A stretch of 64,000 nucleotides of DNA from Streptomyces sp. NBC_00569. Lineage in GTDB: Bacteria > Actinomycetota > Actinomycetes > Streptomycetales > Streptomycetaceae. The position numbers and the translations under genes are program-made. A model generated the notes under the pieces. The model was not told where the DNA came from. It saw only the letters and a program-made list of their open reading frames with translations, and ran no database searches. Below are positions 4,509-51,249 of the stretch, piece after piece. The DNA lies in the NCBI RefSeq assembly GCF_036345255.1, contig NZ_CP107783.1:1-64000 (forward strand), in the 5' to 3' direction. Each line of letters opens with the position of its first letter. Positions within the stretch are counted from its first letter, which is position 1.

Positions 4509-5033
4509 TCACTGATGTTCGAGGGCGCCGTCCGGATCGTCGAGGGCGGATCGGGCCAGCTCCCGGAAATGAGTCAGGCTCGGCCAGTGCGCAGGCGTGA
4601 ACGATGGCGGGTCGCGTCGTCTGGCTGGTTCGAACCCCAGCCTCACGAGAGTGCTACGCAGGATGAACCCGTATCCCCGCGTCACCGACTTGGCTTCCGT
4701 GGCTACGCGGCCAGGCCCTGCCAGCCCCACCGCGTTCTCTGCCTTCGAGAGCGCTGACATGAGCCGTCGCGCTTCTAAGACCCTTTCCTGGAGCTCCGGT
4801 GGTGCTGGATCCGAGGCGCGGGTGATCGCAGAGAGCGCTGGTGCAAGATCCTCTGCCGCGCTGACGAACTGGGTGTAAGCATCGGCCCGAGTCTGCCGAC
4901 GCCAGTGCTCATGCTGCGAGCGCCGCTGTGAACTACCTGCATGCCTGGCAGCACGGACGGCCCCGAACGCACCAAGACCCGCGCCAACTACCGCCGCTGC
5001 AGCGGCGATTGATGCCGTTCCCCCTAGATCCAT
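4509..5033 (-). CDS. Hypothetical protein with one N-terminal membrane segment
   Basis: A 174-residue protein. Residues 5-28 form a small-residue-rich hydrophobic segment (SIAAAAAVVGAGLGAFGAV), probably a signal anchor. A basic stretch (RRSQHEHWRRQTRADAY) and a helical cytoplasmic domain follow, the arrangement common to many short Streptomyces membrane-tethered proteins of unknown role. The start at ATG 5033 puts the membrane segment at the N-terminus; a longer frame to 5123 adds nothing recognisable. It follows the RelE-like gene in the same direction with a gap of about 100 bp. Confidence 0.6.
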   Translation of the reverse strand: MDLGGTASIAAAAAVVGAGLGAFGAVRAARHAGSSQRRSQHEHWRRQTRADAYTQFVSAAEDLAPALSAITRASDPAPPELQERVLEARRLMSALSKAENAVGLAGPGRVATEAKSVTRGYGFILRSTLVRLGFEPARRRDPPSFTPAHWPSLTHFRELARSALDDPDGALEHQ

Positions 5034-9805: not shown

Positions 9806-11014
9806 TCATCGGTGCTGCGGGTGCCATTCGAAGAGCAGGATGGTCGCGTCGTCCCGCAGTTGGTTGCGCTGGTGGTCGAGGATGGCGTGGATGAGCAGCC
9901 GCAGCACCTCGGCCGGGCGCTGGCCGGCGGCGGAGGAGCGGATGATGAAGTCGGTGAACCGGTGGAGGCCGAACTCCGCGCCGTCCGTGTCGCGTGCTTC
10001 TATAACGCCGTCGGTGTAGAGCAGCACGCAGTCGCCCGGTTCCAGTGTCGTCTCGTGGACCTGTCGGGCTGCCGGGGCGAGTTGGCCGGCCAGGCCGATC
10101 GGCGGCTGCGGGGGGCTGTCCAGTGCCCCATCGAGCACCCGCTCGGCACGGATCAGCAGCGGCGGTGGGTGACCGCAATTGACCCAGCGCAGCACCCCGG
10201 TCTGCGCGTCGAGCCGGCATAGCACGCCGGTGCAGAACTGGTCGGGCAGCCACCGGGCGAGCGCTTGGTCGACGAACCCGACGACGTCGGCCAAGTCGCA
10301 ACCGCCGCGGCGGGCGTTCCGCGCCGCTGCCATGGCGACCGACGCGGTCAGGCCGGAGGTCAGATCGTGCCCCATGGAGTCGAGGATCAGGGTGTGCAGC
10401 ACGTCCTTGACCACCGAGTGGTCGAAGGCGTCGCCGGCGACGTCGTACGCCGGTTCCAGGACCGCGGTGGAGACGCACCTGCTGCTGCCGATGGTTCGTG
10501 GTGGCAGGAAGGCCCGCAGCATCTCGGTGGGCAACCGCATGGTCTCGGTGCGGGTGCGGGCGACGAGCCAGTCGCTGTAGGCGCGCTTGGAGGTGATCAG
10601 CATGGCGAGCAGATGCGCCAGTATCAGGCTGCGGCGTATCCGCGCCCCGTCGAGCGAGGCGGTCCGAACCGCCAGCACGCCCAGCCGCTCCGCACCGTCG
10701 ACCAGAGGCATCCAGACGATCACGCCGTCGTCGGCGTCGGCCACCCGCGGGGAGACGGTGCGGTACGCCCAGCCGGCCAACGAGTCGGCCACCGGTAGCG
10801 ACTCCAAGGTCTCGTCGAGTGGGATGAGCAGCCGTTGTTGCAGGTCGACGAGGTAGATCAGCACGGTGTCCAGACCGAGGGCCGAGGCGCACCGGTTCGC
10901 CAGGGCGGGCAGTTCGACGGGCAGGGCCGTCTGCGCCTCGATGATCAGGCCTTCCAGCCGATTCTCATCGACGACGGGGTCGGCACTGGCGGACGCGTGC
11001 GATGGGTCCGACAT
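9806..11014 (-). CDS. GAF-SpoIIE (PP2C-type) serine phosphatase
   Basis: A 402-residue cytosolic protein. Residues about 20-165 form a GAF-like sensor (LPVELPALANRCASALGLDT, then LIPLDETLESLPVADS). A linker (RLPTEMLRAFLPPRTIGS) leads to a SpoIIE/PP2C domain with AGDAFD, ILDSMGHDLTSGL, CVLLYTDGVIEA and DDATILL supplying the metal-binding Asp residues. In Streptomyces these enzymes dephosphorylate STAS anti-anti-sigma factors and so control stress sigma factors; the STAS gene at 5868 is a possible target. The start at 11014 has GGAAGGG upstream and removes an arginine-rich non-protein-like extension. It appears intact. Confidence 0.85.
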   Translation of the reverse strand: MSDPSHASASADPVVDENRLEGLIIEAQTALPVELPALANRCASALGLDTVLIYLVDLQQRLLIPLDETLESLPVADSLAGWAYRTVSPRVADADDGVIVWMPLVDGAERLGVLAVRTASLDGARIRRSLILAHLLAMLITSKRAYSDWLVARTRTETMRLPTEMLRAFLPPRTIGSSRCVSTAVLEPAYDVAGDAFDHSVVKDVLHTLILDSMGHDLTSGLTASVAMAAARNARRGGCDLADVVGFVDQALARWLPDQFCTGVLCRLDAQTGVLRWVNCGHPPPLLIRAERVLDGALDSPPQPPIGLAGQLAPAARQVHETTLEPGDCVLLYTDGVIEARDTDGAEFGLHRFTDFIIRSSAAGQRPAEVLRLLIHAILDHQRNQLRDDATILLFEWHPQHR

Positions 11015-46826: not shown

Positions 46827-47121
46827 GCGCGGTTGGAAGATCCACAACTTCCTGTTCGCACTCCGGTTGCGTAAGAGGCGGGGAGCACCGCGGCGAGTTC
46901 GCGGGCGCGGACCGGGCCTGAGGCCGCGCGGAACTGCGCGCCCGCGAAGTCGACCCGCCCTTCGTTGTAGATCAGCCTCCCCGTCGAGGACCGTGCCGGG
47001 GCGTAGCGAGTTCATGCCCGCCACGGCCAGATCCATCCACGCTGAGATGACCGTCCGACCGGACCGGGCCTGTAGCCGTACGGTCTCGGCGTCGCGCCAC
47101 AGGATGGTTCTGTGTCCGTCG

Positions 47122-48792
47122 TTCTCCAGACTTTGCCGTGTCTCATGAGACATGGGCCCCTCGATACGGGCTGGGGCGCCTGTGTGTCTCGGCTTTGCTG
47201 CTCAGCAGCGGGGCGGAGACGGCCAGCCCGTTGTCGGGTCGTGGCTGGAGTAGTCGTGACGGCTGAGTCCGCGGCGGTCGGACGTCGGGAAGCAAACTCA
47301 TTTCCGTGAACACAGAACACAGCGATCTGCACTTATTGTGGCTTTTGTGTGTTGACGCTCGCTGTGGTGATTCTCAGGCTGGTAGGCGGGGCTGGTGGAA
47401 GGGACTGCGGTCGTGAGTGGTGGGCAGAGTGGACTTCCCCGGTTGCTGACGGCAGCCGAGACGGCGGCGCCCGTGGATGCCGTCGACGTGATCGCGGAGG
47501 ACCTGCGGCGGCGTTTCGAGGCAACGAAGGTCTCTTTCCTCATCGTGGACCTGACAGGGAAGGCGGTGGCGCGGCTGTCGACCGCCCCTGCGGAGGATGG
47601 GCGGGGGGTGGAGCGGATCCCTTTGTTCGGCAGTGTCTACGAGCAGGTGGTGCGCACTCAACGGCTTTATCAGGAGGTGACCGGTCAGGGGCAGCGGGTG
47701 ATCGTGCCGGTCACTAACCGGGGGGATGCGATCGGATTGCTGGAACTGCTCCTGCCGGCCGATCCCGGCGAGGACGTCCTTGATGAGGTCGGGGAAGCCG
47801 CCCATGTCCTGGCCTACATCGTGATCGCCAACGGACGTTTCACCGACTTCTACACCTGGGGCAAACGCTCCAGACCGCCCACCCTGGCAGCGGAAATCCA
47901 GTACCAGCTGCTTCCCTCGTCTCTGTCGTGCGAGGCCGCGCAGTTCACGCTGTGCGGGAGCCTGGAGCCTTCCGAAGACCTCAGCGGCGACACCTTCGAC
48001 TACACCCTGGACCGGGACGAACTGCACGTGTCGGTGACCGATCCCATGGGCCACGACCTCGATTCGGCCCTGGCTGCCACGGTCCTGGTGAGCGCCTTGC
48101 GTGGGGCCCGCCGCGCAGGAGCCGGCCTGGCCGAACAGGCCCATCGGGCCGACCGGGCACTCGTCGACCACGGCCACGGGCACGCCACCGGGCAGCTGCT
48201 GCGCATCAATCTCCGCACCGGGCGGGCCCAGCTCGTCAACGCGGGACACCCCTGGCCACTGCGCATGCGCGAGGGCGCTGTGGAGGTGATCACCTGCGAG
48301 GTGGACCATCCTTTCGGGCTGTCGGAGTTCACGACGCTGCCCTACCGTGTTCAGGACCTCGATCTGCGCCATGGTGACCGTCTGCTCATGTTCACCGACG
48401 GCATGGTCGAACGGCACGGGGAGAAGGTCGACCTGCCTGCCCTGCTGGAGCGCACCCGGGGCCTGCACCCGCGGGAGACCGCATTGATGCTGACGTCCGC
48501 AGTCCGGGACGCTGCCGGCGGGCGGCTCGAAGACGACGCCACCGTGATGTGCCTGGACTGGCACGGCCCGCAGGAGACCCAACGACACGTCAGCTCCGGC
48601 GCGGACGCCCAACAAGCCTCAGCCACCCGCACGAAGCAGCAGCCGTGACCAGAGTGCTCTCCTGGACGGTGCCGGGCTGCCGCTGAGCAGCTCTCGCGCC
48701 GCGTCCTCCTGGAAGCCTAAATTCCCGCCCTTCCCCAGCTACGGGCGGCCCCGGGACCTACCCGAATGAGACATCGCGAGGTGTCTGGAGAA
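47122..48792 (+). mobile_element. Transposase-less insertion in the ligase gene
   Basis: The 1,671-bp segment starts and ends with TTCTCCAGAC (inverted), followed at left by TGTCTCATGAGACA (a 14-bp palindrome) and at right by a related TGTCTCAT. A 6-bp direct repeat, CCGTCG, flanks it (47116-47121 and 48793-48798), as expected for a target duplication. The only gene inside encodes a SpoIIE phosphatase. Confidence 0.85.
47413..48648 (+). CDS. SpoIIE-type (PP2C) phosphatase, passenger of an insertion
   Basis: A 411-residue protein. Residues about 20-160 form a GAF-like region ([40 protein letters not shown]). Residues 185-390 form the SpoIIE phosphatase domain with [43 protein letters not shown] and [14 protein letters not shown] giving the metal ligands. 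It is related to the protein at 9806-11014, with the same domain order. GTG 47413 has GAAGGGA upstream; a GTG 47395 start is possible. Such enzymes control anti-sigma networks. The gene stands alone inside the insertion. Confidence 0.85.
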
Positions 48793-48998
48793 CCGTCGAG
48801 CTTGATCTCGTACCACCAGCCCTTGCCGCGGGGCAGCGTCGGCACGGCCTCGGCGAGGGCGACAGCGACGGGGTACTCCACAGGGCCAGCCTGCGACGGT
48901 CGAGCCAGGGGTGCGCGCTGGCCTACGCTGCGCTGCGGGTTTTGGCCCGGTGCGGGTGGCGGTAGCGGGCCACAAGCCCGGGCCACGGGAGCGCTGGG

Positions 48999-51059
48999 TC
49001 AGCGCTTGACGCGGTTACGGACGGCCAGGACCGCAAGGCCCAGAAGGATGGGCTCGGTCACACGGGACGCCATCTCGATGTAGGTGCCGGACGTGGTCAG
49101 GTCTTGGTCGGCGGAGCGGAACACCACCGAGTTCAGCGTGACGTTCAGGGCCTTGTCGAAACGCTCGCCGGTGAGCCTTTCCCCGGTGGGGTTCTGGGGA
49201 TCTGCCTCGTCGATCTCGAAAGTGACTTTGCCGCCGCCGGCCGGGACGGTGCCGGTCGCTGCCTGCTTCGGGGTGTCCTTCGGGAGACCGAGGCCCATCA
49301 GCAGCACGATGGTGACGAGCATGGCGGCGCCGAGCCACGCCAGCGCCCGGGAAGCGCGCATGCCGTAGCCAGACAGCGCCCAGTAGGCAGTCAGAAGACC
49401 CCGCTCGCTTCGGGGTATGTCGTCGGCGTGGCGGCGCATCTCCATTTCCCCGTAATAGAAGTCGGCGGCCCCAGGCTCGTGCTTGCCATCCTCGAGCGCT
49501 TTGCGAAGCGCGCGGTACACCGGTGCCAGTTGCAACGGCCCGACGCGCCCGGCGCCGAACACGGCCACGTTCCAGCCAGGAACGGCCCCTGCTTGGCTCG
49601 CGCGCCAGTGGTGCTCTTCGGCGAGGGTGCGGCGTTGGGTGAACCGGATCGGACGCCAGCCCCGCCAATGCATTGCGGGCGGGACCGTGTCGAAGGTGCA
49701 TGCGCCCTCCAGCCGAATCTGGTCCAGGTGCACGGTCCCGGTGAACAGGCATCCCGACAGATCGACGTCGGCGAGGACCAGATGGGCCGCGTCCACCCCA
49801 CGCAGCGAAACTATTCGCACCGTGGCGTCGGGCGCGCCGGCAAGAGCCTGTTCTGTCACCGGCCGCCCGTCGGAGAGCACGAAGGGCGCGGCCTCCGCGG
49901 CGATCGTGAGGGGGTACTCGAAGACGGCATGGGAGAAGTCCACCGTTGTGTAGCGCAGCCGTAGTTCGGCTGTCGACATCCAACGGGTTCGCCGGCACTC
50001 CACCCGACGTGCCACGCACGGCAAGGTCATCGGACCGCCGAACACCGCACCAACCAACGACACCCTTCCGGCACACACAAACGGCCCAAGATCAACCGGA
50101 CTCTTGAAGGTCGCCGCCCCGAACCAGGCGTCGCCCTCGAAGGTCGCCGACTCGAACCTGGCGCTGCCTTCGAAGGTCGCTGTCCCGAACCCGGCCCTGC
50201 CCTCGAAGGTCGCCGATCGAAACCATGCGCCGCACTCGAAGCTCGCTGACTCGAACTCAGCCCTCCGCTTGAAGCTCGCTGACTCGAACCCCGCTCTCCG
50301 CTTGAAGCTCGCCGACTCGAACCCGGCGAGGTCCTCGAAGGCCGCCGCCCCGAACCCGGCCCTGTCCTTGAAGGTTGCCGCCCCGAACCAGGCCCTGCCC
50401 TTGAAGGTCGCCGAATCGAACGCGGCTTCGCCCTCGAAGGTCGTCGACTCGAACCAGGCGTCGTCCTCGAAGGTCGCCAAATCGAACCAGGCCCTGTCCT
50501 TGAAGGTTGCCGACTCGAACCCGGCGTCGCCCTTGAAGGTCGCCGACCGGAACCCAGCGTCGCCCTCGAAGGTCGCCGACTCGAACCCAGCTTCGCCCTC
50601 GAAGGTCGCCGTCCCGAACCCGGCCGTGTCCTCGAAGGTCGCCGAATCGAACCAGGCCATGTCCTTGAACTTCGCCGACCCGAACCAGGCCATGTCCTTG
50701 AAAGTCGCCGACTCGAACGAGGCTTCGCCCTCGAAGGTCGCCGCCCCGAACCCGGCGTCGCCCTCGAAGGTTGCCGCCCCGAACCCGGCGACGCCAAGGT
50801 GAGGTTGTCCGGTGCCAGGGTCACGAAGAGCGCCGAGTAGCTCGCTGAGGAGTGGGGCAGTGAAGGACGTGCCGCGGTGATCGACATCGTCTCCGGGCTC
50901 CAGGCCGGCCAGGTAAACAGCCCGCTCGGGGTCAGCAAGGTGAGCCAGACAGGCGGTGTAGCCGAGCACGCGAATGCCGTTACAGCCCACCGGATCGTCC
51001 GGGGCAGCTCCGTGACCGCAGTGAGGCCAGGGAAGCGGCTCTGGGGATGGTGTGGTCAT
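48999..51059 (-). CDS. Pentapeptide-type repeat membrane protein
   Basis: A 686-residue protein. Residues 90-315 contain about 21 copies of an 11-residue repeat (FESATFEGDAG-like), the alternating F-x4-F-x5 form of pentapeptide proteins that folds as a right-handed beta helix. A later A/DL-type stretch follows (RIVSLRGVDAAHLVLADVDL). Then a conserved region (EPGAADFYYGEMEMRRHADD) precedes two membrane helices (LAWLGAAMLVTIVLLMGLG and VTEPILLGLAVLAV) and a basic tail. The layout resembles channel-like pentapeptide proteins in actinobacteria. The start ATG 51059 lacks a clear ribosome binding site. Confidence 0.8.
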   Translation of the reverse strand: MTTPSPEPLPWPHCGHGAAPDDPVGCNGIRVLGYTACLAHLADPERAVYLAGLEPGDDVDHRGTSFTAPLLSELLGALRDPGTGQPHLGVAGFGAATFEGDAGFGAATFEGEASFESATFKDMAWFGSAKFKDMAWFDSATFEDTAGFGTATFEGEAGFESATFEGDAGFRSATFKGDAGFESATFKDRAWFDLATFEDDAWFESTTFEGEAAFDSATFKGRAWFGAATFKDRAGFGAAAFEDLAGFESASFKRRAGFESASFKRRAEFESASFECGAWFRSATFEGRAGFGTATFEGSARFESATFEGDAWFGAATFKSPVDLGPFVCAGRVSLVGAVFGGPMTLPCVARRVECRRTRWMSTAELRLRYTTVDFSHAVFEYPLTIAAEAAPFVLSDGRPVTEQALAGAPDATVRIVSLRGVDAAHLVLADVDLSGCLFTGTVHLDQIRLEGACTFDTVPPAMHWRGWRPIRFTQRRTLAEEHHWRASQAGAVPGWNVAVFGAGRVGPLQLAPVYRALRKALEDGKHEPGAADFYYGEMEMRRHADDIPRSERGLLTAYWALSGYGMRASRALAWLGAAMLVTIVLLMGLGLPKDTPKQAATGTVPAGGGKVTFEIDEADPQNPTGERLTGERFDKALNVTLNSVVFRSADQDLTTSGTYIEMASRVTEPILLGLAVLAVRNRVKR

Positions 51060-51249
51060 ACAGCAAGGGACGATCAAGCACGGCCGGCAGTTGCCGTCCG
51101 CGGCGCCCTCCCCGCAACACGGAGCCCCTGGAGACGACAGGCCACCACGGCCGGCGGGGCTGAGGCCCGGCGAACGCACCCCGCTTCACGTCTGGATCCC
51201 GGATAACCTCCCCTCCCCATATCCGGGCGGCATGGGCCCTGAGGGACGG

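Follow-up and report, generated by a model that had tools for sequence, protein, structure and literature searches.

How did a DNA ligase gene of Streptomyces sp. NBC_00569 come to be split by a phosphatase gene, and by what means was the phosphatase gene moved? The window (the whole stretch of 64,000 nucleotides [nt] that was analysed) forms the left end of a 10.3 Mb linear chromosome and falls within a terminal inverted repeat that is at least 104 kb long; the insert is therefore present twice in the genome, as identical copies. Where compared (4 kb left out), the arms of this repeat are identical apart from a single gap within the outermost 20 kb. Two copies of the 6-mer CCGTCG, at 47116-47121 and 48793-48798, flank an insert of 1,671 base pairs (bp) at 47122-48792, the borders of which read TTCTCCAGAC from 47122 and GTCTGGAGAA up to 48792. 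The inverted ends are perfect over 10 bp, or 11 bp with the adjoining base, and a repeat search returned arms at 47121-47131 and 48783-48793 (11 nt, 100% complementary). A second inverted block, GTCTCA, lies 8 bp further in at one end and 10 bp further in at the other. The sole recognised protein of the insert is a SpoIIE-family (PPM/PP2C-type) phosphatase of 417 aa, encoded on the plus strand from a GTG start codon (47395-48648; PF07228 SpoIIE, E = 7.2e-36); within the insert, the family scan covered this protein. The original prediction had described inverted ends, CCGTCG on both sides and a phosphatase with no transposase, and this description is borne out: no recombination gene was found in the 1,671 bp. 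Proteins A-D of related elements (discussed below) have no match in the window (tblastn, E ≤ 1e-6).

The interrupted ligase gene, which is ATP-dependent by type, lies on the minus strand, with its N-side, to motif I (...WWYEIKLD), at 48799-48890 and its C-side, from motif I (DGHRTILWRD...), at 46974-47121. Across the insert the ligase reads ...WWYEIKLDG / HRTILWRDAETVRLQARSG..., and the cut falls in motif I (minus strand: ...WWYEIKLD / DGHRTILWRDAETV...). The predicted continuation of the ligase as KLDG/HR across the gap is upheld by the joined 87-aa peptide, which matches PF01068 DNA_ligase_A_M (E = 3.4e-6) and has matches in 42 of 150 genus genomes (E ≤ 1e-12). Intact ligase homologues, which had been proposed as a way of confirming the target site, were found: uninterrupted K-x-D-G-x-R junctions are present in 18 of the 20 ligase loci fetched (L173-L192, where L180 is the window's own interrupted copy). 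The window's ligase itself reads as a remnant, since similarity could be followed for approximately 53 residues past the junction and the sequence beyond is not ligase-like by eye. Next to the broken ligase is a gene (48999-51179, minus strand) for a 726-aa protein in which pentapeptide-like repeats can be made out by eye, and a protein with a similar start is encoded near a ligase-inserted end in another genome (G075, L090:15535-17517).

The same cassette is found in the ligases of other genomes. A copy in genome G338 aligns with window positions 47115-48797 at 89.2% identity over 1,687 columns, so homology stops within one base of the element plus its 6-mers. This copy interrupts a different ligase (...PGWAAEPKWD / DGFRALVSVD...), is bordered by GGATGG and GGACGG (a pair outside the 17 counted below) and encodes a phosphatase 94.7% identical to that of the window. 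When 500 bp of flank from the two loci were compared, the best match was 22-24 bp in length (E = 0.007). Further phosphatase cassettes lie in other ligases in G170, the G117 group and S. cellulosae, and in G003 with one end; a second, shortened copy in G338 shares approximately 110 bp of ligase flank with the first and was therefore not counted as independent. Because an 89% identical copy with the same borders occurs between dissimilar flanks in another genome's ligase, the window's insert, read here as a non-autonomous mobile cassette, appears to have moved as a unit. An unrelated rearrangement was rejected on the basis of the G338 copy with the same borders. No uninterrupted ligase with the same phosphatase flanks was seen among the loci read (an unsystematic look).

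These copies could instead be dead relics, that is, old insertions spread by gene exchange and by homologous recombination between ligase genes, with no recombinase moving the cassettes. The flanking ligases are often broken, L205 and L206 have approximately 110 bp of ligase flank in common, and L074, L075, L076 and L096 look like one insertion, all of which would fit; against this, the window and G338 copies combine 89% identity and the same borders with dissimilar flanks, and the same junction codons recur in diverged ligases around different cargo. We regard the relic explanation as very unlikely, and continue with a cassette that moves as a unit.

The ends of the insert belong to a family. 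The pattern TTCTCCAGACN{6,12}GTCTCA has five matches in the window's genome, compared with no control matches: the two ends in the window, their two counterparts in the copy at the opposite end of the chromosome, and one more. Across the genus, the pattern is present in 41 of 392 genomes, compared with 1 of 392 for the reversed control; among 396 genomes drawn from the phylum, it occurs only in the window's genome and in one other, and the latter match looks like chance. Chance as the origin of the ends was rejected from these pattern counts and their controls in the own genome, the genus and the phylum. A lone distal end is present in the window's genome (G000:C1:9257170, L071:8171), without a ligase flank or recognised partner end.

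Two types of end can be distinguished. The first, the recombinase-proximal type or A-end, reads TTCTCCAGAC N10 GTCTCA (48767-48792 in the window, minus strand) and is the type that precedes gene A in relatives L081, L083, L163 and L164. The second, the distal end, reads TTCTCCAGAC N8 GTCTCA (47122-47145, plus strand) and runs into a perfect palindrome, TGTCTCATGAGACA (47139-47152, plus strand), so that this end type spans 47122-47152. Each base of the palindrome is conserved in at least 95% of 45 distal ends, partly by construction, as the motif was used in sorting and in the scan. The 32 stretches of the named distal-end scan comprise 24 from Streptomyces, two each from Micromonospora and Embleya, and one each from Catenulispora, Actinacidiphila, Asanoa and an "Actinobacteria bacterium". 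One contig, L091 (G149:C10), looks like an inverted duplication, with an end of a 3-kb pentapeptide/ALF-repeat cassette in both of its arms.

What these ends flank was assessed with 71 distinct exact ends collected without a flank condition (46 duplicates dropped); this sample is non-random, as the named scan for distal ends included the palindrome in its search pattern and many of the loci had been fetched on account of a first match. DGxR, in the junction frame, opens the flank at 27 of the 45 distal ends (34 within one mismatch), compared with 3 of 11,550 background positions, and [KR]xD closes it at 15 of the 26 A-ends, compared with 0.5% of background positions. A ligase profile matches the flanks of 20/45 distal ends and 6/26 A-ends (E < 0.01; 0/900 and 0/520 for shuffles); the profile was derived from 17 ligases of the same type as that of the window and fails to detect ligases of other types. 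Some ends are off target: 11 of the 45 distal ends differ from DGxR at two or more positions and 7 of the 26 A-ends have neither K/R nor D. Examples of ends off the ligase motif are L083, L145 and L164, the first and last of which are full elements. The apparent target of the family is thus mostly motif I of ligase genes.

Full elements with the same ends indicate what kind of enzyme may be involved. On a Streptomyces sp. NBC_01023 plasmid, an 8.8 kb element has its A-end at KMDG and its distal end at DGFR, with genes A, B, C and D following the A-end in that order and MFS, GntR and DUF6191 genes lying between D and the distal end. Same-ended full elements encode three tyrosine-recombinase-like proteins (A, B and C) and a small protein (D). 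Protein A matches PF02899 and PF00589. A and C keep the residues R, HxxR, H and Y over 10-11 relatives, with one or two rows departing, and C has the first arginine in 10/10 rows. B has the H and Y in 11/11 rows and is without the HxxR histidine; its first arginine is present in 4/11 rows (L163, L164, L165 and L083), which are those closest to the family of the window's element. D is short, with a conserved stretch that is helix-turn-helix (HTH)-like by eye. Searches against the sequences of solved structures gave a single weak topoisomerase match for B (E = 0.16) and, as the best match for C, a Cre, also weak (E = 0.088). With AlphaFold models as queries, the top six Foldseek matches of B in the PDB are all XerH (probability 0.93-1.00) and the top matches of C, likewise of high probability, are Cre; E-values are 0.006 or more and TM-scores are low; mean pLDDT is 73 for B and 76 for C, falling below 50 around the catalytic residues (B 427-485, C 487-520).

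The C profile matches three of the four other genomes asked (G175, G354 and G128, not G017), and in the window's own genome no A (E ≤ 1e-20) and no B or C (E ≤ 0.001) was found. In G354, a 21.6-kb span (L081/L082) is a four-gene element in which C is split by approximately 13 kb with another integrase and an HTH gene. L083 (G175) has two A-type ends, at 4606 and 5853, in the same orientation and 1.25 kb apart, ahead of its four-gene element; either could be the working end, and the arrangement might illustrate how cargo is acquired. Outside the actinomycetes, the same four-gene set is present in L166 (plasmid pSinB of Sinorhizobium, an alphaproteobacterium), followed by mercury-resistance genes. 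It had been proposed that the ends be sought with and without a transposase. They do recur with and without recombination genes; in the full elements examined, these genes encode tyrosine recombinases.

The 6-mers beside the ends bear on the same issue. In 17 ligase-inserted pairs (of which L131 and L150 may be one insertion, and for some of which the second end came from a search favouring a GACGG/CCGTC flank), the two 6-mers are equal in 6, the window's included, and unequal in 11; in 7 of the 17 they differ at the first base. The repeat is therefore best read as a recombinase spacer rather than a transposase duplication. The window's own 6-mers are equal, so this copy alone cannot tell the two apart. 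At the 15 A-ends with [KR]xD, codon x is TGG (5), TTC (5), CTC (3), GTC (1) or ATG (1), and never TGC, TTG or ATC; the 6-mer at the A-end thus always fits a usual ligase codon. This agrees with the asymmetric 6-bp rule of SE elements (discussed below) in the 11/17 unequal pairs and in the fit of the A-end 6-mer to codon x, from which a donor origin of the other 6-mer may be deduced. CCGTCG at the A-end (48793-48798, plus strand) would then be the target's own 6-mer (C GAC GG of KLDG), and CCGTCG at the distal end (47116-47121, plus strand), judging by the 11/17 unequal pairs, a donor-site spacer. If the SE rule holds, CGACGG at the window's distal end would imply that the donor also sat in a ligase-like site.

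The original prediction had taken the 6-mers for a target repeat, which corresponds to a MITE-like mini-transposon of the DDE-transposase type, with a 6-bp target duplication and a transposase that is not seen. Terminal inverted repeats and equal 6-mers in the window copy, together with the six ligase pairs with equal 6-mers, are what such an element would leave; 11 of the 17 pairs differ, however, the two annotated same-ended full elements have tyrosine recombinases and no annotated transposase between their ends, and the target is mostly one codon motif of one gene family. A DDE insertion sequence or MITE with an identical target duplication was accordingly rejected as a candidate, equal 6-mers being found in just 6/17 pairs, and we consider the mini-transposon highly improbable. 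Of the clean transposition of a phosphatase alone that was first proposed, movement as a unit is supported (the G338 copy has other flanks) and the "target repeat" in the transposase sense is not. A recombinase spacer remains our reading of the 6-mers.

Including that of the window, 13 paired elements without intact recombinase genes were read, ranging from 545 bp to 3.0 kb. A search for other cargo genes, also suggested at the outset, returned methyltransferase, LysE translocator, glyoxalase, GPP34, pentapeptide and ALF-repeat proteins by Pfam, with SMI1_KNR4 and Cyt_bd_oxida_II matches below the cut-off and two proteins with no Pfam match (the scan left out L086, L145 and L150). In the S. 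glaucescens element the beginning of A is fused to the last part of D, and in L087 the beginning of A persists; these remnants indicate that at least some cassettes arose by internal deletion. Single-gene cassettes that share a docking site in a catalytic motif also bring to mind an integron-like gene-cassette array, or a homing element of the intein or intron type. Such an origin is scarcely credible here, as the ends are inverted arms around a 6-bp spacer and the ligase frame continues into the insert as KLDGSPDTS....

The phosphatase gene also occurs apart from the ends. Orthologues (approximately 80% identity or more over 1.2 kb) are present in 20 of 198 other genus genomes, and in 13 of these 20 the alignment begins 43 bp before the start codon, at position 47352 or, in one case, the preceding base; in the remainder it begins later. 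This defines a conserved phosphatase leader (47352-47394, plus strand). At least one end is found at 5 of the 20 orthologues, and at the other 15 no end was found within the stretches read. When eight end-less phosphatase loci were compared, two shared flanks with each other. At L077, L078, L079, L080 and L021-L024 the phosphatase gene aligns from 43 bp upstream in mostly unrelated contexts, with no recognisable ends. The copies with ends do not form one clade (at least two label changes are forced over 24 rows), so either there were several captures or ends were lost. A distant relative of the phosphatase (28% identity) is encoded elsewhere in the window (9815-10948, minus strand).

Three tyrosine-recombinase-like proteins with a small protein are a known plan, that of GInt and SE elements; the likeness drawn here rests on gene plan, ends and footprint, the elements being set beside them by their descriptions. 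GInts (Bardaji et al. 2017, PMC5385486) are described as having, at one end, an operon of four genes (for three recombinase-like proteins and one small protein), followed by cargo. They are also reported to insert site-specifically into a gene and to have imperfect att repeats and a 6-nt stagger (PMC5385486), features that have their counterparts here at the level of sequence. The window copy is without the ginABCD operon and so falls outside the GInt definition, whereas full same-ended relatives carry the four-gene set. The target also differs, being ligase motif I, as does the residue pattern: GinA and GinB have RHRHY and GinC is reported to be missing the first arginine (PMC5385486), whereas in our relatives C keeps it (10/10 rows) and it is B that departs. 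The terms "Streptomyces", "Actinobacteria", "ligase" and "non-autonomous" are absent from the main text of the GInt paper (PMC5385486).

The strand-biased circularizing integrative elements, or SEs (Idola et al. 2023, PMC10214605), are described with a recombinase, a tyrosine-recombinase-like protein, a second recombinase and a small protein, in the order found here. In SEs (intA-tfp-intB-srap) the second protein is without the catalytic RHRY motif; the relatives fit this gene order and their second protein departs most, yet its H and Y are kept in 11/11 rows. SEs are also described as circularizing with a strand bias and no empty site. They have imperfect inverted ends and a 6-bp footprint whose two sides differ, with the asymmetry running the same way as here: by the published rule, the 6 bp of the target remain beside the recombinase-proximal end, and the opposite end receives those of the donor (PMC10214605). 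They differ in being restricted to Gammaproteobacteria by that paper's own search and in their median length of 15.7 kb, and the term "non-autonomous" is absent from the paper's available text (PMC10214605). Elements of the Tn554 family resemble ours in their tyrosine recombinases with a TnpC protein, their target specificity and their 6-bp footprint (PMC10214605). Compared by description, they differ in having two recombinases. The target of Tn554 lies in radC. RIT (recombinase in trio) elements share the three tyrosine recombinases and are not known to have a fourth small gene. At L171 (plasmid pHG1 of C. necator), a run of three integrase genes separates what appear to be A and B of a four-gene element; the trio may be a RIT within a GInt-like element. 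No ligase-targeted or non-autonomous form was listed in searches of the open-access literature; a single-gene form that is free of recombinases, and a target at ligase motif I in actinomycetes, are new to us.

Taken together, it is very probable, in our estimation, that the insert is a recombinase-free cassette belonging to a site-specific mobile family of Streptomyces and some other actinomycetes. The sequences compared above show the family of ends, the ligase target, the tyrosine recombinases of the full elements, mobility of this cassette as a unit and the unequal spacers. Under this model, both cassette ends would be recombinase-binding arms, and A, B and C, with their tyrosine-recombinase features, and the small protein D, all encoded by full-length relatives, would recombine these ends in trans. 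A helper of this type would once have been present. The ends would be joined into a circle (GTCTGGAGAA-6 bp-TTCTCCAGAC), which would insert into ATP-dependent DNA ligase genes at GACGG in motif I (KxDG). The A-end would then be bordered by the 6-mer of the target and the distal end by the spacer of the donor, as in SEs. The cargo in our window would be the SpoIIE phosphatase with its leader, in other elements other genes, and some of the cassettes would be internal-deletion derivatives.

Mobilisation of the cassettes in trans is likely, given the number of cassettes and their cargo. We go no further than "likely" because the available accounts of the two systems differ on this point: mutants in each gin gene of GInts were complemented in trans (PMC5385486), whereas intA or intB of SEs supplied in trans failed to restore recombination, for which the authors suggest coupled translation (PMC10214605).

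The model identifies an insert that was otherwise unexplained and predicts that actinomycetes contain a class of small cassettes, which annotation would miss because there is no recombinase inside them. Since the motif I target recurs in diverged ligases, more than one docking site would be available in a genome with several ligases. Two points become testable with this system: the action of GInt/SE-type recombinases in trans on short cassettes, where the two papers, as far as their accounts go, point in different directions, and the asymmetric 6-bp rule outside the Gammaproteobacteria. In its broadest form, a proposition to which we give an even chance, Streptomyces and related actinomycetes would possess a dispersed gene-cassette system: recombinase-free single genes between recombinase arms, with a ligase active-site motif as the common docking site and with the previous ligase host recorded in the distal 6 bp. 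A tyrosine-recombinase machine of four proteins would move these genes in trans, probably in the form of strand-biased circles.
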